The position numbers and the translations under genes are program-made. The notes beneath the pieces were generated by a model. That model saw only the letters and a list, made by a program, of their open reading frames with translations. It did not search any database and was not told where the DNA came from. Shown piece after piece: positions 20,617 through 40,610 of a DNA stretch of 64,000 nucleotides. This stretch comes from Streptomyces abyssalis (lineage in GTDB: Bacteria > Actinomycetota > Actinomycetes > Streptomycetales > Streptomycetaceae), in assembly GCF_001751365.1 (NCBI RefSeq), contig NZ_LJGT01000037.1, positions 62,001 through 126,000 on the forward strand, given 5' to 3'. How positions within the stretch are numbered: position 1 is the first letter of the stretch; every line of letters begins with the position of its first letter.

Positions 20617-21666
20617 GTGCGTGCTCACAAACGGAACAAGGCCGGGCGCAACGTCGCCATGGCAGCCGTCGCGCTGCTGCTCGGGGGCGGCGGCATCGCG
20701 ATCGTCAACGTAAGCGCCAACGCCGGGCAGAACGGCGGCTCTGCGGCCTCGCAGGCCGGCCATGCGCACGGCGACGCCGAGCAGGGCGGCCCGGTCGGCA
20801 GCGACTTCGTCGACATCACCAAGGTCCCGGACAACGTGGAGAAGCCCGGGAACGGCCCGGGCGCTTCGACCGGCACCTTCACCTCCGCCTGCGGCACCAA
20901 CGCAGGTGACCAGCACAACTCGGACAACGTGATCGTGGCTCCGGGCGTGGCCAACGGCGCGCACCACACGCACGACTACGTCGGCAACAAGCAGGTCGAC
21001 GGCGATTCGACCGACGAGTCGCTCGCCGCGCAGGACACCACGTGCACCAACGGCGACCAGTCCACCTACTACTGGCCGGTGCTCCGCGACCGTAGGCAAC
21101 AGGGCGAGGACGCCGGCAAGCCCGGAGGCGGAGCCGAGGGCAACATCGGTTCCATCATCGAACCGGCCACCGTCGACCTCACCTTCCGCGGAAGCCCCCG
21201 TGGCGACGTCGTCGCCATGCCGCGCTTCCTGCGGATCATCACCGGCGACGCGAAGGCCTCCACGAACGGCGGCGCGAACGCCAACGCCGCCTGGTCCTGC
21301 ACCGGCTTCGAGGACAAGGTCCAGCTCGAGGACAAGTATCCGATCTGCCCCGACGGCAGCAGGGTCGTGCGGACCGCGTTCTTCCAGAGCTGCTGGGACG
21401 GCCAGAACACGGACAGTGGGGACCACCGCGCCCATGTGGCCTTCGCCGAGGACGACGGATCGTGCCCCGACGGCTTCAAGGCCATCCCGCAACTGGTGCA
21501 GCGCCTGACCTATGACGTGCCCGACGCACCGGACTTCGCGGTGGACAGCTTCCCCGAGGAGAAGCACAAGCCGGTCACCGACCACGGCGACTTCATCAAC
21601 GTCATGAGGGACGGCCTCATGAACCGGGCCGTGGACTGCATCAACTCCGGCCGGCGGTGCGGCTGA
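20617..21666 (+). CDS. Secreted DUF1996 protein
   Basis: A 349-residue exported protein. A signal peptide (basic start [12 protein letters not shown], then [22 protein letters not shown]) precedes a DUF1996 domain. Hallmarks are [90 protein letters not shown], and a C-terminal [21 protein letters not shown]. Four or more conserved Cys and several His/Asp suggest disulfides and perhaps metal binding. The domain is common in fungi and streptomycetes; its function is unknown. The GTG has AGGA upstream. The next gene encodes a membrane-anchored cellulose-binding domain, so a role at the wall or on polysaccharide is plausible. Confidence 0.9.
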
Positions 21667-21838: not shown

Positions 21839-22519
21839 ATGGACGATTCCGGATCGCCCTGGACACCGATGCGCCGTCGCCCGCCCGGCCGCGGAGTGAC
21901 GTGGGGGCTCCGGGTCGCGCGTGCGGCGCCGGCGGGGGCGGGCGCGGTCGTGGTGCTGCTGCTGGCGTTGACGGTGGTCCTCCAGCAGGTCGGCGCCTGG
22001 CCGTTCGCGCGGCATGACATCCCCTCCCGCTCCGTGCCGGACGCCCGGCTGCCCTTGCCGCCGTCGGCCGTGGGCTCCGGCGGTTCGCCGTCCGACGGGG
22101 AAGGGGCGGGCCGGGCTCCGGGCGGGAGCGGCGAGCCGGAGCCCGGCGCGCCAGGTGACGGCAGGACCGCTCCCGGTGTGCCCGGTGACGGCGCGCCAGG
22201 TGACGGCGAGGGGACTGCCGACTGCGGCTGCAAGGCCGTCTGGCACGTCGACGGCCAGTGGGAGGACTTCAACGCGACGGTGAGGGTCACGAACACCGGG
22301 GAAGTGCCCGTACGCGGCTGGCAGATCACCTGGACGTGGCCGGACGGACAGCGGCTGGTCAAGGGCTGGAACGCCGAGTTCCGGGAGTCGGGCGCGGCTG
22401 TGACGGTGCGGAACGGCCGCGGCAACGCGGAGATTCCCACGAAGGGTCAGACGGCGTTCGGCTTCCAGGCGACCCGAAGCGGAAGTCCCGCCCCACGTCT
22501 CACCTGTCACGTCCTCTGA
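21839..22519 (+). CDS. Membrane-anchored CBM2 (cellulose-binding) protein
   Basis: A 226-residue protein with a basic N-terminus, one membrane segment (GAGAVVVLLLALTVVLQQVGAW, about residues 37-58), a Gly/Pro/Asp-rich linker of 70 residues and a C-terminal family 2 carbohydrate-binding module. Module marks are the paired cysteines (CGCKAVW and LTCHVL), VTNTGEVPVRGWQITWTWPDGQ, GWNAEFRESGAAVTVRN and TAFGFQA. Exposed Trp residues should bind cellulose or chitin. No catalytic domain is attached, which is unusual for CBM2. It may hold the cell on a substrate or sense glycan for the adjacent kinase genes. The ATG at 21839 has GAGGGG ten bases upstream. Confidence 0.88.
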   Translation: MDDSGSPWTPMRRRPPGRGVTWGLRVARAAPAGAGAVVVLLLALTVVLQQVGAWPFARHDIPSRSVPDARLPLPPSAVGSGGSPSDGEGAGRAPGGSGEPEPGAPGDGRTAPGVPGDGAPGDGEGTADCGCKAVWHVDGQWEDFNATVRVTNTGEVPVRGWQITWTWPDGQRLVKGWNAEFRESGAAVTVRNGRGNAEIPTKGQTAFGFQATRSGSPAPRLTCHVL

Positions 22520-22538
22520 GATGTCACGTCCTCTGAGA
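22505..22538. repeat. 17-bp tandem duplication across the CBM2 stop
   Basis: TGTCACGTCCTCTGAGA occurs twice head to tail (22505-22521, 22522-22538). The stop codon lies in the first copy, so the duplication does not lengthen the protein. It looks like a recent slippage event. Confidence 0.9.
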
Positions 22539-22670
22539 CCACCCGGCCCCGCGCCCAGGACCCGGCATCAGGCACCGCGGCCCCCGGCAGCCCGTGCCGG
22601 AATCGCGGGCTGTCCGTTCGTGGGATTTCGTCTAGGCTCCCCATGCTTCATGAAACAAGGGGGGAAGCGG

Positions 22671-23696
22671 ATGGAGCCGCTGCGGCTGGACGATCCACGG
22701 AATCTGGGCGACTACGTGCCGATCGGGCGGGTGGACGCTCCGGACGGCGAAGTCCCCTTGCCAGTACGCCGGTTCGTCGCAAGAGGTGCGGGAGGCGGCC
22801 GTACGGTCCTGATCAGCGTGCCCCTCGCGGAGCTCGCCGGCGACCACGAGTACGGCGAGCGGTTCGCGGCGGAGGCCGAAACGGCCCGGCGGCTCGGGGC
22901 GGAAGCCCGCCTGCCGTGGACGGCACAGGTCATGGAGAGCTCCCGCCTCCCCGGCGGTCCGCCGTGGTACACGACGCCGTACGTGCCCGCCCTGCCGCTG
23001 CCGGGCGTACTGGCGGCACACGGCGGCGGTCTCCCCGAACGCACCCTGCGGGCGCTCGGTCTCGGGCTCGCCGAGGCACTCACCGAGCTGCACGCGCGCG
23101 GAGCGGTGCATGCCGGGGTCTCGCCCGGTGCCCTGCTGGTGGCCGCGGACGGGCCGCTGCTGACGGCGTACGGAGCGATGCGTGCGCTGGTGCCCGGGAC
23201 AGGTCACTTCGCCCACCGTCCCTCCCTTGCCGGTCTCCCCGAACGCGGCGGCGTGCCGCCCGAGCAGCTCTCGGGCGGTACGCCCGGTCCACCGGGTGAC
23301 GTCCACGCGCTGGGGGCGGTGCTCTGCTATGCGGCATCCGGGCTGGACGGGGCGGACTCCTCCCGCATGCCCGCGAGCATGCGCACCCTGGTCGCAGCCT
23401 GCCTGTCCGAGGACCCCGGCGACCGTCCGCAAGCGGCCGTCGTACGCGACGAGTTGAGAACAGGGGCGGCGGCCTTGCCGGTGACGTCCGGCCCGCCGCC
23501 CGTCCCCGTGGCGGCGCAGCGTCGGGGCCCGGTCTCAGCCCCCGCCGCCGTTCCGTGGTCTGCCGGGGGTGCTGCCGGAGGCACGGTGCTCGACAGCGCC
23601 GCGAGCGCCTTCGGGCCGGGCTGGCTGCCGGCACGCGTCATCGCGGCCATCGCCCGGCAGTCCGCTTGCGCGCTCGGGGCGGCACTCCCCGCCTGA
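22671..23696 (+). CDS. Serine/threonine pseudokinase
   Basis: A 341-residue protein with the fold of a bacterial Ser/Thr kinase but without the chemistry. Alignment by eye to the neighbouring kinases gives these equivalences. The VAxK strand is TVLISVPLAEL (no Lys). HRDLKPSNILL is HAGVSPGALLVA (catalytic Asp, Lys and Asn all gone). DFG is TAYGAM. The C-lobe is intact (PPEQLSGGTPGPPGDVHALGAVLCYAASGL, LVAACLSEDPGDRPQAA). An 80-residue Pro/Ala-rich tail follows with no membrane segment. ATG 22671 follows AAGGGGGG. It precedes two active-looking kinases on the same strand, so an allosteric or scaffold role toward them is likely but inferred. Confidence 0.85.
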   Translation: MEPLRLDDPRNLGDYVPIGRVDAPDGEVPLPVRRFVARGAGGGRTVLISVPLAELAGDHEYGERFAAEAETARRLGAEARLPWTAQVMESSRLPGGPPWYTTPYVPALPLPGVLAAHGGGLPERTLRALGLGLAEALTELHARGAVHAGVSPGALLVAADGPLLTAYGAMRALVPGTGHFAHRPSLAGLPERGGVPPEQLSGGTPGPPGDVHALGAVLCYAASGLDGADSSRMPASMRTLVAACLSEDPGDRPQAAVVRDELRTGAAALPVTSGPPPVPVAAQRRGPVSAPAAVPWSAGGAAGGTVLDSAASAFGPGWLPARVIAAIARQSACALGAALPA

Positions 23697-23875
23697 CGGC
23701 CCGGCTGTTCCGGCCCGGGTTCCCGTCCGGCTGTTCCGGTCCGGTCCGGTCGAGCCCCGATGCCCCGATGCCCCGACTTCCCGATGTCTCCGACGTTCCG
23801 GCCGCACGCCCGCACCAGCGGTGCTCCGCGGCGTGCACCCGTCCTTGCCCTCACTCATCCGTGGACTGCGATCCG

Positions 23876-26284
23876 ATGGCTCCTCAGCATCTGCCCCTCA
23901 CCCATGACGACCCCGTGCAGCACGGCCCGTACCGCTTGGTCGCGCGCCTCGGCAGCGGGGGCATGGGCACCGTCTACCTCGCCCGCGACTCCGGCGGCCG
24001 CGCCGTCGCCCTCAAGACCATGCACGCACGCATCGCGGACGAGCCCGAATTCCGCAGCCGTTTCCGGCTGGAGGCGGATGCCGCCCGCGTCATCGGAGGC
24101 CGGTACGGAGCCGAAGTCGTGGACGCCGACCCGCTGGCGCGGACACCCTGGCTGGCGACGGAGTACGTGCTCGGCCCTCCGCTGGACGAAGCGGTGGAGT
24201 ACTGCGGCCCGCTGCCGGAGGAGTCCGTACGCGCACTGGGTGCGGCCCTGTGCGAGGCGCTGGGACAACTGCACAGCTCCGCCGTCGTGCACCGTGACCT
24301 CAAGCCGTCCAACATCCTCCTCAGCGCCTCCGGGCCGAAGGTCATCGACTTCGGCATCGCCAGGGCGATCGGGGACGACCGGCTGACGCGCACGGGCACC
24401 GCCGCCGGAACCCCCGCCTACATGTCGCCGGAGCAGGCCGGCGGGCTCGAACACACCGCAGCCGGCGACGTGTTCGCGCTCGCCGGGGTGCTGGTGCACG
24501 CAGCGTCCGGGCACGGCCCGTTCGGCGGCGGGCAGGCGGCCGACCTGCTCTACCGCGTCCGCTACGGCGAGCCCGACCTCGGCGAGGTGCCGGAAGCGCT
24601 CGTACCGGTGCTGCTCCGCTGTCTCGCCAAGGACCCCGCGGCGCGGCCCGGCATGGCGCAGCTCGCGGCGGAACTCGCGTCCCGGCTGCCCCGCGACGGC
24701 GGGGAGTTCGCGGAGGCTCTTCCGGACAGTGTGCTGGCGGAGATCGGGCGCCGCAGCGCGGAGGTGTGGAGGATCGAGCCGCACAGGCTGCCTCCGCCGC
24801 CGGGCGGCACGTTCGGCACAGGCACAGGCACGGGCACGGGCACGGGCACAGGCACAGGCGCCACAGCAGGTGCCGGCGGGTACACGCCCACCCAGGCGGC
24901 GTATCCGGCCCCGTCGGTCACCGGGGGCGACGGCGTCCGCACCGGCTTTCCGCGTCGCAAGCTCCTTGCGGTGGCGGGCGGTTCGGGCCTGGCGCTGGCC
25001 GCGGCGGGAGCCGGGGCGTGGGCCTGGGCAGGCGGCGGCGGTGCCGGAGGGACGGCACCGGACGGGTCTGCCTCCCGCGGGCCGGGCGGTGCGCCGGAGC
25101 CCGTGTGGCGGGCCGCGACGTCGTTCTTCACCGACGGCGATCTCCCGCCGCTGCTGGTGGGCGGGCAGCTGGTGACGTCGAACAGGGAAGGTCTGGTGGC
25201 CCTCGACGTGAAGTCCGGCGACCAGCAGTGGACCAGCGCCGAGGCCGACGACAACCAGGTGACCGGCGACGGCGAACGGCTCTACGAGATCGTCGCGGAG
25301 GCCACGAAGGGCAGCGGCGTCACCATCCGCACGCTCGATCTCCGTACCGGCGCACGCGCGGGCGAGGCCGGCAGGCTCCCGGACTTCGACGGCCGCGAGC
25401 ACGGCGACGGCGACCGCACCACACAGCCGCTCGCCGCCGCCGGCGGAGTGCTCTACCTCGCGGCGCGCACGCGCGAGGCGAACGCGTCGAATAGGCCTCT
25501 CGCGCAGGGCTGGTACGTCGTGGCGTTCGATCTGCGCGCCCACAAGGAGCGCTGGCGCAGGCCGCTGAAGCAGTACGCCACGTCCTTCGCCTCCTTCGGC
25601 GACGACGTCAGCGCCTACTCCGTCAAGCCGCTGCGCGGGCGCCTGCTGCTCGCACGTCCCCGCAACGACTACGAGAGTCCGCTGCAGACCGTGGCCGCCT
25701 GGGACCCGCGGAACGGTGAGGTGATGTGGAACGCCGAGCCCCTGCCCAGGGAGCTGGACGACGACGCGCCTCCGCTGCCCAGGCAGCTGGCCACCGACCT
25801 GCGGCACGTCTACTTCGGCTCCGGCCGCGTCACCGCGCTCAGGCTCTCCGACGGCAAGGAGGCGTGGCGGTACGAGAGCGCGGGCGTCCGCGGCGGACAC
25901 GCGGCCGCGAACCCGGACGAGCAGCCCGCCCTGTACGGACCGCCCGCCGTACGCGACGGCGTGGTCTACGCGGCGGAGCGGAACCGCGGCCTGGTCGCCG
26001 TCGGCGCCCGCGACGGGAGACTGCTGTGGAAGCAGAAGTCCGGCAGCGAGCCCGCCCCCGATCTCGACGTGCCGCCCGTCGTCGGCGAGAAGTACGTCTA
26101 CGTCTCGGCCGGGGGGCACAGGTGTCTGACCGCGGTCAGCCGCCGTACGCACCGCACCGCCTGGAAGTTCCGCCTCACCGGCGACGGCGACGGCGGCACG
26201 GGCGAGCGCTTCGTGGTGCACAGGAAGGCCCGGCGGATCATCGGCAGGGGGCGTGGCGGGGCGTATGCGATACCGCTGGAGTGA
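23876..26284 (+). CDS. Membrane Ser/Thr protein kinase with PQQ-like beta-propeller
   Basis: A protein of about 802 residues. The kinase domain (about 19-275) has GSGGMGTVYLA, the ATP Lys in AVALKTMH (residue 47), VVHRDLKPSNILL, DFGIARAIGDD and GTPAYMSPEQAGG, so it should be active. A low-complexity linker includes seven Gly-Thr dipeptides. A single membrane segment (RRKLLAVAGGSGLALAAAGAGAWAWA) follows. The C-terminal 430 residues form PQQ-like propeller repeats ([55 protein letters not shown]). The kinase would lie in the cytoplasm and the propeller outside, as a sensor. No good ribosome site precedes the ATG at 23876; a GTG at 23861 is possible. Confidence 0.9.
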   Translation: MAPQHLPLTHDDPVQHGPYRLVARLGSGGMGTVYLARDSGGRAVALKTMHARIADEPEFRSRFRLEADAARVIGGRYGAEVVDADPLARTPWLATEYVLGPPLDEAVEYCGPLPEESVRALGAALCEALGQLHSSAVVHRDLKPSNILLSASGPKVIDFGIARAIGDDRLTRTGTAAGTPAYMSPEQAGGLEHTAAGDVFALAGVLVHAASGHGPFGGGQAADLLYRVRYGEPDLGEVPEALVPVLLRCLAKDPAARPGMAQLAAELASRLPRDGGEFAEALPDSVLAEIGRRSAEVWRIEPHRLPPPPGGTFGTGTGTGTGTGTGTGATAGAGGYTPTQAAYPAPSVTGGDGVRTGFPRRKLLAVAGGSGLALAAAGAGAWAWAGGGGAGGTAPDGSASRGPGGAPEPVWRAATSFFTDGDLPPLLVGGQLVTSNREGLVALDVKSGDQQWTSAEADDNQVTGDGERLYEIVAEATKGSGVTIRTLDLRTGARAGEAGRLPDFDGREHGDGDRTTQPLAAAGGVLYLAARTREANASNRPLAQGWYVVAFDLRAHKERWRRPLKQYATSFASFGDDVSAYSVKPLRGRLLLARPRNDYESPLQTVAAWDPRNGEVMWNAEPLPRELDDDAPPLPRQLATDLRHVYFGSGRVTALRLSDGKEAWRYESAGVRGGHAAANPDEQPALYGPPAVRDGVVYAAERNRGLVAVGARDGRLLWKQKSGSEPAPDLDVPPVVGEKYVYVSAGGHRCLTAVSRRTHRTAWKFRLTGDGDGGTGERFVVHRKARRIIGRGRGGAYAIPLE
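24815..24856 (+). repeat. Hexanucleotide microsatellite coding for (Gly-Thr)7
   Basis: Seven in-frame copies of GGCAC(A/G) in the linker of the first propeller kinase. Gain or loss of units would change linker length without a frameshift. Confidence 0.9.
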
Positions 26285-26371
26285 CGCGGACGCCGGTGCC
26301 CGTCCACGGCCGGGCCCCGGCGTGTGCGCTGCCCGATGGCCCGCCCCACCCCTCAGCAGGAAGGCTTCGCG

Positions 26372-28471
26372 TTGAAACCCCTCGGCTACGGCGATCCGCT
26401 CCGACTCGGCCCGTACCGCATCATCGGCACGCTCGGCGAAGGCGGCATGGGCAAGGTCTATCTCGGCCGCGACGGTTCGGGCGAGGTGGCGGCGGTCAAG
26501 GTGCTCCGTCCCGAACTCGCCCACGAGACACACATGTCGCAGCGTTTCGTGCGGGAGGCGCAGGCCGCGCAGGCCGTACGGAGCAAGGGCGTGGCGCGGG
26601 TGCTGACCGCGCAGACAGACGGCGGAGCGCCCTTCATCGCCACGGAGTTCCTCGCCGGGCCGACCCTCGACCGGGCCGTCGAGCGGCACGGGCCGTTTCC
26701 CGAGCCGGAGGTGAGAGCGCTCGGTGCGGCGCTCGCCCGGACGCTCGGCGACATCCACGCCGCGGGGCTGGTGCACCGGGACCTGAAGCCCTCCAACATC
26801 GTGCTGACTTCGGGCGGTCCGCGCATCATCGACTTCGGCATCGCCCGCCCGGAACACGGCCTGACGCTGACGACGACCGGTCAGGCGCCGGTGACGCCCG
26901 GCTACGGTGCGCCGGAGCAGGTGCTCGGACAGCGGACGGGACCGCCCGGCGACGTCTTCGCGCTCGGTGCCGTGCTCGTCTTCGCCGCGAGCGGCGAACG
27001 GGCGTACCAGGGCGATCAGATAGCCGTCGTGCAGTACGAAGTGGTGCACGGTGAGCCCCGGTTGGAGGGTGTGCCCGAGGCGCTCGTGCCGCTCATCGCC
27101 CCCTGCCTCACCAGGGACGCGGCGCAGCGGCCGCAGCCCGCGCAGATCACCTCGGCTCTCGCCCCGCCCCGTGACGGCCGGCAGCTGTGGAAGAAGGGCG
27201 GGCTTGGGGACGACATCGCCGAGGCGGAGTCGGCCGCGAAGCAGCTCGCCACGTTCCCCCCGGCTCCCGGCAGCCAGAACGGCACAGCCGCCACCGGGCC
27301 CGCCGCCGGGTCCGCCGCGCCGCCCCCGGCCGATTCCCCCACGCGGCGCCGCGTACTGACCGGCCTCGCCGCCGGCGGCACCCTGCTCGTCGCGGGCGGC
27401 GGCACGGCCTGGTGGCTGACACGGGAGGAGCCTCCGCGGCGCGCCCATCCCTGGTTCGCGCTGCCGCTCCAGGACGGGGAGTACGAGGAAGGCAGGGCCC
27501 CCGAGCCGCTGTGGGGGCCGCGGGACGTCGCGTTCGCGCAGTCGCCAGCTCCACTGGTGTCCCGGGACCTCGTGGTCGTCGGGGGCAAGCGGGACGCGCG
27601 TGTGACGGCGTTCTCCGTACGGGACGGAAAGCGGAAGTGGGTCTCCGAAGCCGCCTTCTACCAGCCGTTGTTCGCCGCGTCCCCGCGTCTGATCGTCACC
27701 GGCGGCTCCGACGGGCAGCTCTTCGGCGTCGACGCCCGCACCGGTGCCGTCGAGCGGCGGCACCCGACCGGGATGAGCGTCCTCCTCGCCGTGGACGCGC
27801 GTGCCGCGTACTGCCTCGTCGAGGACGAAGTGCGGTGCGTGGAACTCGTGTCGGGGAAGGTGAGGTGGCGCAAGCCGGCACCGCTGGACGAGTTCTCCGG
27901 GGGGCGCGGAATCTCCGCGACGGCCGCGGGCGGTCTGCTGGTGCTCGCCACGGCCAAGGACGCGGCGATCGCCCTCGACGTCCGTACGGGCGGGAAGGTG
28001 TGGAGCAGGCCCGGCGGAAGCACCGGCGCCGGGGTGCCGCCCGTGACGGCGGGCGGCGAGGTCTATCTCGGCGGGCAGTCGCTGAGCGCCGTACGGCTGC
28101 GGGACGGCGAGGAGCAGTGGTCGGTGCCGGCGGAGGTCAACGAGGGCTGGAGCGGACCGGCCGTACAGGGCGACGCCGTCTACGCCTCCGCCGGGTCCGA
28201 AGTCCGGTGCCGCGGACGGCGCGACGGGCGGGAGGTGTGGCGGCGGGAGGTCGACGGCGGGGTCTTCGCGGGCGGCAGGCCCGTGGCGGAGGGCAACACC
28301 GTCTGGGTGACTCTGAAGGAGACCGCGGGGGTCGCCGCGCTGGATACGCGGACGGGCCGCGCGGCATGGGTCCGGCGGCACAAGGACGGCGGGAGCGTAC
28401 GCATGACCGGCGCGGGGAACCGCGTGTTCCTGCTGACGGAGGGGAAGCTGACGGCCATGCCCGTCATCTGA
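26372..28471 (+). CDS. Second membrane Ser/Thr protein kinase with PQQ-like beta-propeller
   Basis: A 699-residue kinase from the TTG at 26372. That start has AGGAAGG seven bases upstream and gives the family-typical MKPLGYGDPLRLGPYRIIGTLGEGGMGKVY. An ATG at 26336 lacks a ribosome site. Catalytic features are Lys43 (AAVKVLRP), LVHRDLKPSNIVL, DFGIARPEHGL and GYGAPEQV. After a Pro/Ala linker comes a membrane segment preceded by three Arg (SPTRRRVLTGLAAGGTLLVAGGG). Then come propeller repeats: RVTAFSVRDGKRKW, QLFGVDARTGAVER, AAIALDVRTGGKVW, SAVRLRDGEEQW and GVAALDTRTGRAAW. The order matches the preceding kinase, so the pair arose by duplication. The ligand read by the outer propeller is unknown. 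Confidence 0.92.
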   Translation: MKPLGYGDPLRLGPYRIIGTLGEGGMGKVYLGRDGSGEVAAVKVLRPELAHETHMSQRFVREAQAAQAVRSKGVARVLTAQTDGGAPFIATEFLAGPTLDRAVERHGPFPEPEVRALGAALARTLGDIHAAGLVHRDLKPSNIVLTSGGPRIIDFGIARPEHGLTLTTTGQAPVTPGYGAPEQVLGQRTGPPGDVFALGAVLVFAASGERAYQGDQIAVVQYEVVHGEPRLEGVPEALVPLIAPCLTRDAAQRPQPAQITSALAPPRDGRQLWKKGGLGDDIAEAESAAKQLATFPPAPGSQNGTAATGPAAGSAAPPPADSPTRRRVLTGLAAGGTLLVAGGGTAWWLTREEPPRRAHPWFALPLQDGEYEEGRAPEPLWGPRDVAFAQSPAPLVSRDLVVVGGKRDARVTAFSVRDGKRKWVSEAAFYQPLFAASPRLIVTGGSDGQLFGVDARTGAVERRHPTGMSVLLAVDARAAYCLVEDEVRCVELVSGKVRWRKPAPLDEFSGGRGISATAAGGLLVLATAKDAAIALDVRTGGKVWSRPGGSTGAGVPPVTAGGEVYLGGQSLSAVRLRDGEEQWSVPAEVNEGWSGPAVQGDAVYASAGSEVRCRGRRDGREVWRREVDGGVFAGGRPVAEGNTVWVTLKETAGVAALDTRTGRAAWVRRHKDGGSVRMTGAGNRVFLLTEGKLTAMPVI

Positions 28472-32643: not shown

Positions 32644-34098
32644 TCAGCCGGTGGGCGCCCCGGGCCACGTGAAGGTCGCGACGGCGCCCGCCGGCAGCTC
32701 GTACGCCAGCGAGCGACCGGCCTCCGTGACGGAGAACTTCCGCGGCGAACCGGCGGAGTTGAGGACGACGGCCGCCCGTGAGCCGTCCGGGTTCTCGAAC
32801 ACCACGTCCTCGACTCCGCCCGGCTGCTGCGTGGTCGAGCCGATGCGGTGGGCGCCGCGGTCCACGAACCTGGAGATGTGGCCGAGCGTGTAGTACTCGG
32901 CGTTCCTCGTGACGCTGCCGCCGTCGATCTCGACGACCCCGTTGCACCTGGTGCCGCAGTTTCCGAAGTGCGGTCCGCCGTTCTCGTCGAGCGCCATGTT
33001 CCACAGCACCACCGTCTCCGAGCCCGAGCGCATGCTGCGGATGACGAGGTTCTCCGTCTGCCACTTCAGGCTGTCGGCGAACGTGTTCGCGCTCTCGTCG
33101 CTGTCGGTGCCGGAGCACTCGGTGAAGAAGACTCTGCCGCCCGCGTCCCGCACCTGCTGCTGGGCCTCCGGCTCACCGCCGTAGCAGTGGAAGGCCGCGC
33201 CCTGCACACGGCCGATGTCCCCTGTCTTCGCCAGGACTTCGAGCGGGTATTCGGGCTTGTCCCAGTTGTGGTCGTAGGCGAAGAGCTCCGTGCCCAGACC
33301 GGCCGCGGTCAGCTTGCCGTCCAGCACGCGCAGGAACTCCGCCTGCTCCGCGGCGGACATCCCCATGGACGGGTACGTCGTCTCGAACAGCGGCTCGTTC
33401 TGAACGGTCAGATCGTGCACGGGCACGCCCGCGTCCGCGTACGCCTCGACCGCCTTGACGAGATAGTCCGCGTACGCCTCCTGGTTCTCCGGCTTCAGGC
33501 TGCCGCCCTCCAGCGCCCCGCCGTCCTTCATCCAGGCCGGCGCGGACCACGGGCTGCCCATGACGCGGATGCCGGGGTTGACCGCGAGGGCCTGCCGCAG
33601 CAGCGGCAGGATCTCCTTGCGGTCGCGGTCGACGGAGAAGGAGCCCTTCTCGTCCTCGTAGCTGTAATAGGGCAGTTCGGCGACGAAGTCGGAGCCGCCG
33701 AAGGGCTGGCGCAGATAGTCCAGGCCGATTCCTTCGCCGTCCGTGGAGAACAGGCTGTGCATCAGCTGCTCGCGTTCGCCCTCGGGCAGCGCGGCCATCA
33801 GCCGGGCCGACGCCTCGGTGAGGGAGGCACCGGCGCCGGTGAACTGCTGCTCCCGCTCGGACGCGTCGACGGCGAGGTCGATCTCCTGCCTGCCGCCGTC
33901 GAAGGCGACGTCCTCGCCGCGCTCCAGGCGCTTGCCGCCGTCGGCCGTCGTCACCCACACCTGGGCGGTCGTGGCGGCCTGCCCTGCTGCGGGAGAGCCG
34001 CCGCCGTCCGCACGGGCGGCCTCGCTCACGAGGACATGGGTGGCGGCGAGCAGCGCCAGAGCGGTGGCCGACGCGGCGAATCTCCGTCTGTGTGTCAT
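32644..34098 (-). CDS. Secreted glycoside hydrolase family 30
   Basis: A 484-residue exported glycosidase. A signal peptide (MTHRRRFAASATALALLAATHVLVSEAARA) precedes a (beta/alpha)8 barrel with QQFTGAGASLTEASARLM, MGSPWSAPAWMK, the acid/base Glu in DLTVQNEPLFET and the nucleophile Glu in RVFFTECSGTDS. A C-terminal beta domain closes it (PGGVEDVVFENPDGSRAAVVLNS). The subfamily is that of glucosylceramidases and endo-beta-1,6-glucanases; in a soil bacterium the glucanase role is more likely, but this is inference. It is last in a minus-strand operon with a GH1 beta-glucosidase and a sugar importer. The ATG follows GGGAG. Confidence 0.92.
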   Translation of the reverse strand: MTHRRRFAASATALALLAATHVLVSEAARADGGGSPAAGQAATTAQVWVTTADGGKRLERGEDVAFDGGRQEIDLAVDASEREQQFTGAGASLTEASARLMAALPEGEREQLMHSLFSTDGEGIGLDYLRQPFGGSDFVAELPYYSYEDEKGSFSVDRDRKEILPLLRQALAVNPGIRVMGSPWSAPAWMKDGGALEGGSLKPENQEAYADYLVKAVEAYADAGVPVHDLTVQNEPLFETTYPSMGMSAAEQAEFLRVLDGKLTAAGLGTELFAYDHNWDKPEYPLEVLAKTGDIGRVQGAAFHCYGGEPEAQQQVRDAGGRVFFTECSGTDSDESANTFADSLKWQTENLVIRSMRSGSETVVLWNMALDENGGPHFGNCGTRCNGVVEIDGGSVTRNAEYYTLGHISRFVDRGAHRIGSTTQQPGGVEDVVFENPDGSRAAVVLNSAGSPRKFSVTEAGRSLAYELPAGAVATFTWPGAPTG

Positions 34099-34197
34099 GT
34101 GCGCTCCCTTCGGGTGCGTGTACGTCTTGCGCGGCTTCCAGGACGGGCGGGGACGGGGGAGGGGGCCGGAGCGGTGACCGCGACGGCGGCCGGCCGG

Positions 34198-35586
<1,389 letters not shown>

Positions 35587-35770
35587 GGACTTCCTTTCGT
35601 ACGGAACCAGCGGATCGGGCGGATCGGACGGAACCAGCTGGAGCGAGCCGGAACGGGGCGAACGTGTTTGCTGCGGGCGGGAGTTCGGAGCGTGTGGACC
35701 CGCCGGCAGGCGTGACGGGCCGACGGCACGGCGGAGGGACCGTGCCGTCACGGCCGCCCGGCGGGCCGGG

Positions 35771-35812
35771 CCGGTGGATCAGGCCCGTTGGATCAGGGCC
35801 GTTGGATCAGGT
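35771..35812. repeat. Three 14-bp tandem repeats upstream of GH1
   Basis: CCG(G/T)TGGATCAGGN is repeated three times head to tail (35771, 35785, 35799). It lies in the 270-base gap between the permease and GH1 genes and could affect spacing or expression within the operon. Confidence 0.85.
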
Positions 35813-35856
35813 TCGGTGAGCCGGGTGGTCCCGGGGGAGCCGGGGCCGGCCGGGGT

Positions 35857-36864
35857 TCACTTGACCGCCCCCGCGGTGAGGCCGGTGACCAGATAGCGCT
35901 GCAGCAGCAGGAACCCGGCGACGATCGGCACGCTCGCGACGAGCGAGGCGGCCATGACCTGGTTCCAGTAGACCTGCGTCTGCGTGGCGTAGCCCTGCAG
36001 TCCGATGGCGAGTGTGCGGGTGGTCTCGTTCGTCATGACGGACGCGAAGAGCACCTCGCCCCACGCCGTCATGAAGGAGTAGACGGCGACGGCGACGATG
36101 CCCGGAACCGCCGCGGGCACCACGACGCGCACCAGCGCGCCGAGCGGTCCGCAGCCGTCGGTGAGGGCGGCCTCGTCCAGGTCGCGCGGGATGGAGTCGA
36201 AGTAGCCGATCAGCATCCAGATGGAGAAGGGCAGCGTGAAGGTGAGGTAGGTGACGATCAGCGCGCCGCGCGAGCCGTAGAGGGCGACGCCCGTCGCGTT
36301 GCCGAGGTTGACGAAGATGAGGAACAGCGGCAGCAGGAAGAGGATGCCGGGGAACATCTGCGTCGAGAGGATGGTGACCGTGAACAGGCGCTTGCCGCGG
36401 AACCGGTAGCGGCTGACGGCGTAGGCGGCGAAGGTGGCGATGACCACCGAGCATCCGGTCGCAGCGCCCGCCACGATCAGCGAGTTGAGGAAGTAGTCCG
36501 CCAGCGGCACCGTGCTCCAGATGTCGACGTACGGACTGATCGTCAGCGAGCTCGGAATCCACCGGAAGCGGTCCGAGACGTCCTGAAGCGGCTTGAGTGA
36601 ACTGCTCACCATCACCAGCAGCGGGGTCGCCGCGAAGATCGTGAGCAGCGTCAGGACGACGCGCCGCGTCCAGATGAACGACCGGGGCGGTGCGGTCGGG
36701 GAGACGCGGCCCGGGCCCTTCCGCCCTCCCGCGCCCGAGGCCCGTCCCGCCAGGTGCCCGCCGGGCTTCCGTGACGTGCCGCCGGCGGTGCCGTCGCCCG
36801 CCGTGCCGCCCGTCCCGCCGTCAGCGGTGCCGTCCGCGGTGGCGGTCGCCGTGGCCTCAGACAT
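35857..36864 (-). CDS. Carbohydrate ABC transporter permease (MalG/CebG type)
   Basis: A 335-residue permease. A 60-residue Gly/Thr/Ala-rich cytoplasmic tail precedes six membrane segments (FIWTRRVVLTLLTIFAATPLLVMVSSSLK is the first). The EAA loop that contacts the ATPase is LDEAALTDGCGPLGALVRVVVPAAVPG. It overlaps the preceding permease gene by eight bases. No ATPase gene is in the operon; Streptomyces sugar importers of this class normally share the MsiK ATPase encoded elsewhere. The glycine-rich N-terminal extension is unusual for a MalG homologue. Confidence 0.93.
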   Translation of the reverse strand: MSEATATATADGTADGGTGGTAGDGTAGGTSRKPGGHLAGRASGAGGRKGPGRVSPTAPPRSFIWTRRVVLTLLTIFAATPLLVMVSSSLKPLQDVSDRFRWIPSSLTISPYVDIWSTVPLADYFLNSLIVAGAATGCSVVIATFAAYAVSRYRFRGKRLFTVTILSTQMFPGILFLLPLFLIFVNLGNATGVALYGSRGALIVTYLTFTLPFSIWMLIGYFDSIPRDLDEAALTDGCGPLGALVRVVVPAAVPGIVAVAVYSFMTAWGEVLFASVMTNETTRTLAIGLQGYATQTQVYWNQVMAASLVASVPIVAGFLLLQRYLVTGLTAGAVK

Positions 36865-37867
36865 CGCGTTTCCTCCCCGCGCCGGTCACCAGCAGATAGC
36901 CGCCGGTCACCAGCAGCAGGAAGAGCAGCAGCAGTACGGACATGGCCGAACCGGAGCCGAAGTCCCAGGTGACGAACGACGCTTGGTAGATGTGGATCGA
37001 GATCAGGTCCGCGGCCTCGGGTGCCGACTTGCCGAAGAGGATGTACGGCACGTTGAAGTCGTTGAACGTCCACAGGAACAGGACCAGCACCAGGACCTGG
37101 TTGACGGGGCGCAGCGAGGGCAGCGTGATGCGGCGGATCTGCTGCCGCATGCCGGCGCCGTCGACGTGCGCGGCCTCGTACAGCTCCTTGGGGATGTTCT
37201 GCAGCGCGGCCATCAGGATGAGGAACGCGAACGGCCAGGTCCGCCACACCGCGACCACGACCAGAGCGGCGAAGCTGTTGTCGCCGATGAGCCAGAAGGG
37301 TTCGGAGTCGGTGAGCCCCAACTGGTCGTGTATGACGTGGTTGACCATGCCGCCGTCGCGCTGGAGCAGGAAGGACCAGGTGATGACGGCGGTGTAGACG
37401 GGCAGCGCGTAGGGCGTCAGGAACAGCGCCCGCAGCACGCCCCGTCCCCGGAAGGACTCCTGCATCAGGATCGCCGCCGTCACTCCCAGCAGCCACGCCA
37501 GTGAGACGGCCAGCACCGTGAACGCGCAGGTGACGAAGAACGAGTGCAACAGGGCTTCGCCGACAGGGGCGTTGACGTCGACGGCGATGCGGAAGTTGTC
37601 GGTGCCGGTCCACGGTGCCGCACTCCAGTCGCGTATGTACTGCTGCGTCAGCTCCTTGAAGCTCATCGTCACGCCGACGGCCATCGGGCCCAGGTGGATG
37701 AGGATCTCCAGGACCAGCGCCGGCAGCAGCAGCAGATACGGCAGTCCGGCCCGGCGCAGGCGGTCGGGGAGGATACGCCTGCGCCGGGGGAGCGGGGGAC
37801 CGCTGTGTGACGGGCCGGCCTCACGGTCCGGACGGGACGTGCCGGGTGGGGGGCTGAGAGTCGTCAT
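36857..37867 (-). CDS. Carbohydrate ABC transporter permease (MalF/CebF type)
   Basis: A 336-residue permease with six segments (YLLLLPALVLEILIHLGPMAVGVTMSF first). It has the family's FLTPYALPVYTAVITWSFLLQRDGGMVN and an EAA-type loop ELYEAAHVDGAGMRQQIRRITLPSLRP. It pairs with the overlapping MalG-type gene to form the membrane channel for the sugar delivered by the binding lipoprotein encoded just upstream (gap about 8 bases). Confidence 0.94.
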   Translation of the reverse strand: MTTLSPPPGTSRPDREAGPSHSGPPLPRRRRILPDRLRRAGLPYLLLLPALVLEILIHLGPMAVGVTMSFKELTQQYIRDWSAAPWTGTDNFRIAVDVNAPVGEALLHSFFVTCAFTVLAVSLAWLLGVTAAILMQESFRGRGVLRALFLTPYALPVYTAVITWSFLLQRDGGMVNHVIHDQLGLTDSEPFWLIGDNSFAALVVVAVWRTWPFAFLILMAALQNIPKELYEAAHVDGAGMRQQIRRITLPSLRPVNQVLVLVLFLWTFNDFNVPYILFGKSAPEAADLISIHIYQASFVTWDFGSGSAMSVLLLLFLLLVTGGYLLVTGAGRKRDV

Positions 37868-37875
37868 CGCCCGGC

Positions 37876-39195
37876 TTACTTCCGCATCTGCTGCTGGGCG
37901 GCGGACAGTTCCTTCGCGACGGACTCGGTGGTCACCTTGCGTCCCGCCGCGGCGTCCGCGAAGAGGTCCTTGGTGGCGTTACCGACGAGCGTCTCGAACT
38001 TCGACTCGTCCTTGACCTGCGGAAGCGGGGCGGAGGAGGTGGTGAGCACCTCACGCAGCACCTTCAAGTCGGGTGTGTCGAAGGCCTTGTCGCTCTGTGC
38101 AGCCTTGACCGGAGGAATCGATCCGTAGGCCGCGTTGAGGGTGCGCTGCTCCTCGTCCGACGTCATGAACTTCGCGAACTTCATCGCGCCGTCGATGTTG
38201 TCGGTGTTCTTGAAGACGGCCAGGTTGATGCCCGCGACCATCGACCGGGTGCCCTTCTCTCCCGAGCCGGGGTTCTGCACGGGGATCGGCGCGACGCCGT
38301 ACTCGTCGGACTTCATGCCGTTGGACTGCAGAGCGGTGCCCGCCGCCTGCCACAGCAGCATGCCCGCCTTGCCCTTCGCGAAGTCCCGCACGGACTCGCG
38401 CTTGGCGAACTCGGCGTTGCCGGGCGCCGCGATCTTGTCGGCGGCCAGCAGGTCGACGTACTGCTTGACGGCGTCGACCGCGCCGGGCGAGTCGAACGTC
38501 GGCTTGCCGGAGGCGTCGAAGAAGTCGGCACCGTGCTGCTTGCCGAGGATGAAGGCGTGGTGTGAGTTCTCGACCGGGTCGCCGCCCTCCAGGGCGATGC
38601 CGTGCTTGCCGTCGCCGGTGAGCTTCTTGCCGTCCTTGACCAGCTCGTCCCAGGTCTCGGGCGGTCCGTCGATGCCCGCGTCCTTGAACATCTTCTTGTT
38701 GTAGTAGAGGCCGTAGGCGAGCGAGTAGATCGGCAGGGCCGCCGGGTCCTTGTCCGGAGCGCCGGCCGCGGCCAGAGCGGAAGGCGTGAAGCGCTCGGCT
38801 CCGCCGACCTTCGCCATGTGCTCGTCGTCCCAGGGGAGCAGCGCGCCGGTCGCCTGGAGCGAGGCGGACCAGGTGTTGCCGATGTTCAGCACGTCGGGGC
38901 CCTGGCCCGAGGACGTCGCGGCCAGGATGCGGTCCAGCAGGCTGCTCCACGGGATGACTTCGAGCTTGACCTTGATCCCGGTCTTCTTCTCGAAGCGCTT
39001 CAGCTCGGGGGCGAGCACCTTCTTGTCGTGGGCGACGCTGGTGCCCTGGTTGCTGGCCCAGTAGGTGAGCTCCTTCGGCTTGTCGTTGCTGCCCTCGCTG
39101 TCGGTCGTGGTGCCGCCGCCGCAGCCGGCGGTGACGGCTGTGAGTGCGGCGGCGAGTGCGACGGCTGCTGCGTTGCGTGCCCGGCTTCTGCGCAT
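37876..39195 (-). CDS. Extracellular sugar-binding lipoprotein (ABC)
   Basis: A 439-residue family 1 solute-binding protein. The lipobox is AVTAGCGGG (lipid-anchored Cys near residue 25). The mature part shows KELTYWASNQGTSVAHDKKVLAPELKRFEKKTGIKVKLEVIPWSSLLDRIL, GPDVLNIGNTWSASLQATGALLPWDD, YSLAYGLYYNKKMFKDAGIDGPPETWDELV and GKAGMLLWQAAGTAL. It captures an oligosaccharide for the two permeases. Many aromatic residues fit a sugar site, but the ligand is not predictable; context favours beta-glucosides. A very strong GGGGAGGGG precedes the ATG. Expression should be controlled by the inverted repeat at 39225. Confidence 0.93.
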   Translation of the reverse strand: MRRSRARNAAAVALAAALTAVTAGCGGGTTTDSEGSNDKPKELTYWASNQGTSVAHDKKVLAPELKRFEKKTGIKVKLEVIPWSSLLDRILAATSSGQGPDVLNIGNTWSASLQATGALLPWDDEHMAKVGGAERFTPSALAAAGAPDKDPAALPIYSLAYGLYYNKKMFKDAGIDGPPETWDELVKDGKKLTGDGKHGIALEGGDPVENSHHAFILGKQHGADFFDASGKPTFDSPGAVDAVKQYVDLLAADKIAAPGNAEFAKRESVRDFAKGKAGMLLWQAAGTALQSNGMKSDEYGVAPIPVQNPGSGEKGTRSMVAGINLAVFKNTDNIDGAMKFAKFMTSDEEQRTLNAAYGSIPPVKAAQSDKAFDTPDLKVLREVLTTSSAPLPQVKDESKFETLVGNATKDLFADAAAGRKVTTESVAKELSAAQQQMRK

Positions 39196-39224
39196 GGCTG
39201 ACGGCCCCTCCCCGAGGCGGCTGT

Positions 39225-39252
39225 GTTCGGACCCTGAATGGTCCGAACCATT
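39225..39252. promoter_or_regulatory. Operator: 9-bp inverted repeat overlapping a second palindrome
   Basis: GTTCGGACC-CTGAAT-GGTCCGAAC (39225-39248) is a perfect 9-6-9 inverted repeat. AATGGT-CCGA-ACCATT (39237-39252) is a second perfect one sharing its right half. Both lie between the binding-protein gene and the divergent ROK regulator gene, just downstream of the predicted minus-strand start near 39260. A roadblock operator for the ROK protein is the simplest reading. Confidence 0.7.
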
Positions 39253-39266
39253 AATTTCACGCCGTG

Positions 39267-39295
39267 AGTTAAGTAGTGAGAGAAGGGGGCGTCAA
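39267..39295 (-). promoter_or_regulatory. Promoter of the GH/ABC operon
   Basis: On the minus strand TTGACG (39295-39290), a 17-base spacer and TTAACT (39272-39267). The predicted start near 39260 puts the inverted repeat within the first 35 transcribed bases. Confidence 0.6.
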
Positions 39296-39335
39296 GAGTT
39301 CTGACAGAGGTACGTTTGGCAGGGGAGGGCAGCTG

Positions 39336-40610
39336 ATGGGCGGATACGACAGGCGTACTGTACGCGACCTGCGGCGGAACAACCGCGCTGCCGTGCTGCG
39401 CCGTCTGTATTTCGAAGGCCCGCTCAGCAGACAGGAGTTGGGCCCGGCGACAGGGCTCAGTTCCGGGTCGATAAGCAATGTCGTCACCGAACTCCTCGCC
39501 GAGGGCGTCCTGGAGGAGGCCGGCTCCGTAGGCTCCGACGGCGGCCGTCCCCGTACGCTGCTGCGCGTCGCCGCGCACTGCGCCTGCCTCGTCGGCGTCG
39601 ACGTCGGCGAAACGCGGGTGCGCGTCGAGCTGTTCGACATGATGCTCACCGAAGTGGCCCGCAGCGAACAGCCGCTGGACGACGGCCGGCACGACGCGGC
39701 GCTCGTCGTCCAGCTCATCGAGAAGGGCCTCGCCTCGGTGCTGGCTCAAGTCGGGGCGTCCACCGGCCCGTTGCTGGGTGTCGGTGTCGGCGTCCCCGGC
39801 ATCGTCGAGCGGCGGGCGCACGGCGGAGCGCTCGTGCACGGCCAGACCATCGGCTGGGACGCCGTTCCCCTGGAGGCCATGCTCCGCGAATCCGGCGGAA
39901 TCACCCAGGGCGACGCCCTCGCCGAGGGGCGGCGCGCACCGCTCCACATCGACAACGGCGCGAAGACCCTCGGCCAGGCCGAGATGTGGTTCGGCGCCGG
40001 CCGTGGCGCCCGCGACGCGGTCATCGCGCTGATCGGTTCCGGGGTCGGTGCCTGCGTGGTCACCGGCGGCGAACCGTACAGCGGTGCCTCGAGCGGCGCG
40101 GGCGAGTGGGGCCACACCGTGCTCACCGTCGGGGGCCGGCGCTGCCGGTGCGGCGCCAGGGGCTGCCTGGAGGCGTACGTGGGAGCGGCCGCGGTGATCG
40201 ACCGCTGGCGCGAGGCGGGCGGGGAGCCGGACGGCGGGGACGAGGAGACGGTGCTCGCGGAACTGCTGGCCACGGGGGGCGGCGAGGGGGCGCCGGGGCG
40301 CTTGGCGCGAGAGGTGCTGGCGGAGACGGCCGAGTATCTCGGCGCGGGCATCGCCGACCTGGTCAACCTCTTCAACCCCGAGCGGATAGTGATCGGAGGC
40401 TGGGCCGGACTGTTGCTGGGACCACAGTTGCTTCCGGCTGTGCGTGAGGCGACGGACGCGTACGCTCTCCGGTACCCGGCGGCCCGCACGGCCGTCGAAC
40501 TGTGCAGGCTCGGCCCGGACGCGGTGACCGTCGGCGCTGCCACGCTGCCGCTTCGCCGCTTCCTCGACGCGGGAGGAAGTCCGCCCCCAGGGGTGGCTTT
40601 GTCCGTGTGA
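39336..40610 (+). CDS. ROK-family transcriptional regulator
   Basis: A 424-residue regulator. An N-terminal winged helix (TVRDLRRNNRAAVLRRLYFEGPLSRQELGPATGLSSGSISNVVTELLAEGVLEE, residues 8-62) is joined to a ROK domain with VGVDVGETRVRVELFD, DNGAKTLGQAEMWFGAGRG, the ROK zinc motif CRCGARGCLEAY and NLFNPERIVIGGWAG. It has lost part of the kinase ATP-site glycines (DVGETR instead of DIGGTK), consistent with a sugar-sensing repressor (NagC/XylR type). It is divergent from the GH/ABC operon with the operator in between. In the cellobiose locus of other streptomycetes this position is taken by a LacI-type protein. ATG 39336 follows GGGGAGGG. Confidence 0.92.
   Translation: MGGYDRRTVRDLRRNNRAAVLRRLYFEGPLSRQELGPATGLSSGSISNVVTELLAEGVLEEAGSVGSDGGRPRTLLRVAAHCACLVGVDVGETRVRVELFDMMLTEVARSEQPLDDGRHDAALVVQLIEKGLASVLAQVGASTGPLLGVGVGVPGIVERRAHGGALVHGQTIGWDAVPLEAMLRESGGITQGDALAEGRRAPLHIDNGAKTLGQAEMWFGAGRGARDAVIALIGSGVGACVVTGGEPYSGASSGAGEWGHTVLTVGGRRCRCGARGCLEAYVGAAAVIDRWREAGGEPDGGDEETVLAELLATGGGEGAPGRLAREVLAETAEYLGAGIADLVNLFNPERIVIGGWAGLLLGPQLLPAVREATDAYALRYPAARTAVELCRLGPDAVTVGAATLPLRRFLDAGGSPPPGVALSV

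Follow-up and report, generated by a model that had tools for sequence, protein, structure and literature searches.

The window, a stretch of 64,000 nucleotides from the genome of Streptomyces abyssalis (an assembly of 6.6 Mb in 41 contigs), contains five adjacent genes that all lie on the + strand. The first, at 20617-21666 and thus upstream of position 21839, where the first-pass annotation had its cassette begin, encodes a secreted DUF1996 protein with a signal-like N terminus (Pfam E 3e-28). The second (21839-22519) encodes a CBM2 protein (Pfam CBM_2 E 6e-21) that is anchored in the membrane by a single transmembrane segment near residue 29, and in which a domain search found no catalytic domain. 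Both proteins, and their common direction, are as that annotation described them. They are followed by a soluble pseudokinase of 341 residues (22671-23696) and by two Ser/Thr kinases, kinase A (23876-26284) and kinase B (26336-28471); with the start chosen, 179 bp separate the pseudokinase from kinase A. The five genes are flanked by malate synthase and a MobA-like gene on one side and by an IclR regulator, an amidohydrolase and allantoicase on the other, so that the block looks as if it had been inserted among housekeeping genes.

The pseudokinase is the core of the conserved unit described below. Its match to Pfam Pkinase reaches only E 0.007, under the cut-off, with an AfsK-like match at the N terminus (E 1e-16) and a match to PknB by sequence (E 1e-11). 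AlphaFold2, run with 15 sequences, nevertheless returned a kinase fold (pTM 0.80, mean pLDDT 78), for which PknB and PknI were the top matches among solved structures. Alignment places Ser at the position of the β3 lysine (22815-22817, + strand; VLIS for VAIK), His-Ala-Gly at the HRD motif (23109-23117, +), in the context HAGVSPGA where active kinases have HRDLKPSN, and Ala-Tyr-Gly at the DFG motif (23166-23174, +). The Gly-rich loop is also absent, and the C-lobe marks PPEQ, GDV and DPGDRP are retained. The loss of catalytic residues is common to the orthologues: β3 Lys, HRD Asp and DFG Asp are kept in none of 53 orthologues, every one of which is dead, the HRD aspartate being replaced by Gly in 52 of the 53 and that of DFG by Cys (40), Gly (11), Ala (1) or Ser (1). 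The description of a kinase-fold protein lacking its catalytic residues therefore holds. The G-helix is missing as well, as seen from an alignment gap after ASG/ATG and from the AlphaFold2 model, in which no full helix lies between those at residues 207-223 and 235-244.

Kinases A and B, by comparison, retain the Lys, HRD, Asn and DFG elements together with activation loops that bear Ser/Thr. Each has an intact kinase domain (Pkinase E 6e-34 and 3e-37, respectively), an anchor and a PQQ-like propeller (PQQ_2 E 8e-28 and 2e-24), as the first-pass annotation had it, and the outer position it gave the propellers is probable, since the anchor stands before them. The signal-anchors are of the twin-arginine type, lying on the + strand at approximately 24950-25034 in kinase A (FPRRKLLAVAGG...) and 27338-27420 in kinase B (PTRRRVLTGLAAGG...); the motif is found in 47 of 50 kinase A orthologues and in all 50 of kinase B, among which RRR is invariant. 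Anchors of this SRRRLL type, low in hydrophobicity, thus precede the propellers in 97 of 100 kinases, which suggests export of a folded sensor domain by the Tat pathway. Such an anchor is not peculiar to these kinases, because 13 of 27 control Streptomyces kinases, sampled from those longer than 500 residues, carry the same motif.

The pseudokinase, kinase A and kinase B form a conserved three-gene unit, referred to below as the trio. When 101 Streptomyces genomes were searched with a profile of pseudokinase orthologues, 20 scored at least 303 bits and the next match, second copies in trio loci aside, scored 205. All 20 also encode a kinase B orthologue (~800 bits or more), and one further genome has kinase B alone; the two genes therefore occur together in 20 of the 21 genomes with either (p = 3e-20 over the 101). 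The trio is present in about a fifth of the sampled Streptomyces. A wider draw of 198 genomes of the order, covering six genera, recovered it in 34, every one of them Streptomyces and none outside that genus. Gene neighbourhoods were read at 53 trio loci, 51 of which contain all three genes, in the order pseudokinase-A-B in 48 and B-pseudokinase-A in 3; two loci are incomplete (L172 and L173), and L176 and L099 appear shortened or degraded. Median gaps are 6 bp from the pseudokinase to A and 47 bp from A to B. Pairwise distances of the pseudokinase correlate better with those of kinase A (r 0.76) than with those of kinase B (r 0.59), some correlation being expected from shared ancestry alone; taken with the tight spacing, this suggests that kinase A is the nearer partner. 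Conservation of this kind is consistent with a pseudokinase that regulates true kinases. In one genome (G067), kinase B of the trio locus (L093) contains an in-frame TAG close to its end; a second kinase B is encoded elsewhere, with which no pseudokinase was detected.

Another view of the dead kinase would be that it is a functionless duplicate in decay. It does evolve faster than the kinases, with dN/dS of 0.15-0.50 compared with 0.06-0.33 in 12 close pairs, and it stands alone, with no C-terminal PQQ_2 in the window, whereas 8 loci have two tandem pseudokinases and relatives there carry a propeller of their own (called by length, and in L039 also because it resembles the propeller of kinase A). 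However, dN/dS is well under 1 in all 12 pairs, the same motifs have been lost in 53 of 53 orthologues, and the position upstream of kinase A is conserved. The selection values and the fixed pattern of motif loss lead us to reject a decaying pseudogene, which we regard as most improbable.

The first-pass annotation extended the cassette to all five genes and had the outer modules read the state of the wall or of a polysaccharide. The part of this that stands is the trio, which is conserved across very different sites; at the 52 other trio loci, both CBM2 and DUF1996 are absent from the neighbourhood. Lack of conservation among neighbours was what that annotation itself had named as counting against its proposal, and for these two genes the surface-glycan reading fails on exactly this point. 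The genes are adjacent and on the same strand in the host genome, and a cluster of sugar genes, comprising GH30, GH1, an ABC transporter and a ROK regulator, lies a few kb on, which would suit a glycan sensor. Yet there is no full-length orthologue of the CBM2 protein in 100 other Streptomyces genomes, where only CBM2 domains were found, and its anchor-type paralogue in the host genome (L182:9636-10538, 50-51% identical) has no kinase near it. A single glycan-sensing cassette of CBM2, DUF1996, pseudokinase and kinases is thus very unlikely, and we reject it since its neighbours are not conserved; CBM2 and DUF1996 are best described as local neighbours outside the conserved unit. The other sampled genomes likewise lack a counterpart to this paralogue. 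The sugar cluster, at 32644-40610 of the window and a few kb past the CBM2 gene, may be the true glycan context of CBM2.

What does accompany the trio, repeatedly, is type VII secretion (T7SS). Under strict thresholds, T7SS core genes lie within ~10 kb of 17 of the 53 trio loci and of none of 26 control kinase loci drawn from the same genus (p = 4e-4, a value that, like the one for co-occurrence above, overstates independence, as loci within a branch are kin). The strict count omits L098 and L178, with weak EccC-like matches, and L040 and L041, which have only a partial gene of the SCO5717 family. Of 48 trio genomes, 14 have EccC no more than 25 kb from the trio, against a chance expectation of ~0.5 with relatedness ignored. 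Neighbour families were checked with NCBIfam and Pfam; EccB, C, D, E, mycosin and WXG100 were confirmed with NCBIfam, and by EccB, C, D, E and mycosin the linked loci belong to T7SSa. Seven loci (L047, L087, L153, L155, L156, L159 and L169) have two WXG100 genes immediately upstream of the trio and on its strand; in three more (L039, L095 and L096) the trio sits between EccD and rpsO of the canonical ESX locus, and in L093 on the SCO5717-family side of that locus. A tree of concatenated trios spreads the T7SS-linked state over several well-supported branches, and the trio of the window groups with ESX-linked ones.

Several further observations concern these loci. Between EccD and rpsO of one genome (G085, L099:7673-9910), a degraded kinase remnant and a pseudokinase fragment are what is left of a trio that decayed at the ESX locus. 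Proteins of ~770 residues with a WXG-like N terminus, paired with a small protein of ~140 residues, adjoin the trio in L045, L046, L090, L150-L152 and L176, a group that also has mycosin-like subtilases nearby; they are possible T7SS substrates, and the one scanned had no Pfam or NCBIfam match. No FHA phospho-reader was found among the scanned proteins neighbouring the trio.

This linkage can be read in two ways. The trio could be a general envelope-signalling module that moves horizontally and has no special client, T7SS loci being merely variable places in which it settles. It is found at many sites that have nothing to do with T7SS, several of them seen in single genomes only, and about half of the loci, the window included, have no T7SS gene within 10 kb. 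The host genome is a case in point: its complete ESX locus, with EccB, two WXG100 genes, mycosin, EccC and EccD by rpsO-pnp, is on another contig (C39, L180-L181), contains no kinases and has EccD and rpsO only ~178 bp apart; here, then, the trio and the T7SS are unlinked. Against a module with no special client, the 26 control loci show no such linkage in the strict test, and in seven loci the trio runs on directly from a WXG100 pair in the same orientation. A module with no client is therefore a tentative alternative that deserves to be kept in view. To the other reading, in which 22671-28471 is a portable phospho-signalling unit whose dead kinase regulates two membrane kinases and whose usual client is the T7SS, we would give an even chance.

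On this latter reading the pseudokinase, cytoplasmic and unable to transfer phosphate, would bind the adjacent kinases or regulate them allosterically, kinase A most directly. The catalytic domains of kinases A and B lie in the cytoplasm, and their propellers, probably exported in folded form through the Tat pathway, would detect some cue at the cell surface. The output would usually be control of the T7SS, its parts or its substrates, a likelihood that rests on the repeated presence of the unit in ESX loci and beside WXG100 substrate genes; in the host genome, its target would be either the unlinked ESX locus or a more general one in the envelope. The loss of catalytic motifs, the conservation of the unit and its linkage to the T7SS are observed; the direct pseudokinase-kinase contact, the Tat route and the client are inferred. 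Helix G is a surface for docking and dimers in PknB-type kinases; as it is missing here, the pseudokinase would more likely touch its partner by other faces.

For most bacterial pseudokinases no partner is known; here comparative genomics puts forward two kinases as candidate partners, together with a probable client, and both questions can be tested in a tractable genus. The closest likeness is to ActPs1, an actinobacterial pseudokinase family in which all three catalytic residues are lost, the G-helix is absent in ~60% of members and a C-terminal PQQ_2 is present in many, not all (PMC12599244). Compared by the features described in the available text of that paper, the pseudokinase of the window resembles ActPs1 in having lost β3 Lys, HRD Asp, DFG Asp and the G-helix, and its relatives in 8 trio loci share the PQQ_2 propeller. 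It differs in lacking PQQ_2 itself, an optional feature of the family, and the same text mentions neither a kinase pair nor a secretion locus for ActPs1. Among named NCBIfam models, AfsK is the best match of the kinase domains. The AfsK equivalog NF053615, with a cut-off of 1300 bits, gives only 60 bits for the pseudokinase and 293 and 238 for kinases A and B, which sets them apart from AfsK proper; they share with AfsK and the PkaI cluster SCO4775-4779 the character of clustered Streptomyces Ser/Thr kinases acting at the cell envelope, the genes of the PkaI cluster being transcribed separately (PMC4416010).

EssB/YukC, a pseudokinase that is a core part of T7SSb (PMC9600267), is likewise a dead kinase domain tied to a T7SS, and those relatives of the pseudokinase that possess an anchor and an outer domain match it in topology, but the system here is T7SSa and has two active kinases beside the pseudokinase. 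EssB appeared neither in the sequence search nor among the 50 best fold matches, where PknB and PknI rank, and homology to it is unsupported by either. A Streptomyces T7SSa with an EssB-like arrangement, in which the dead kinase serves as a dock for WXG100 or LXG-like substrates and the two kinases switch it such that envelope sensing gates secretion, seems to us unlikely. In the literature searched we found no pseudokinase with two active kinases tied to a Streptomyces T7SSa. The survey of Garrett et al. 2024 (PMC11217815), in its accessible sections, describes membrane Ser/Thr kinases in the clusters of T7SS subtypes c, d, e and h, and lists none for Streptomyces T7SSa, a genus of which a word search of the paper gave no mention. 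At the linked loci the trio kinases are also membrane Ser/Thr kinases in T7SS clusters; those subtypes are other than T7SSa, and no set of a pseudokinase plus two kinases is described for them in those sections. If the proposed role is correct, phospho-control, already proposed for other T7SS subtypes, would extend to the T7SSa of Streptomyces.
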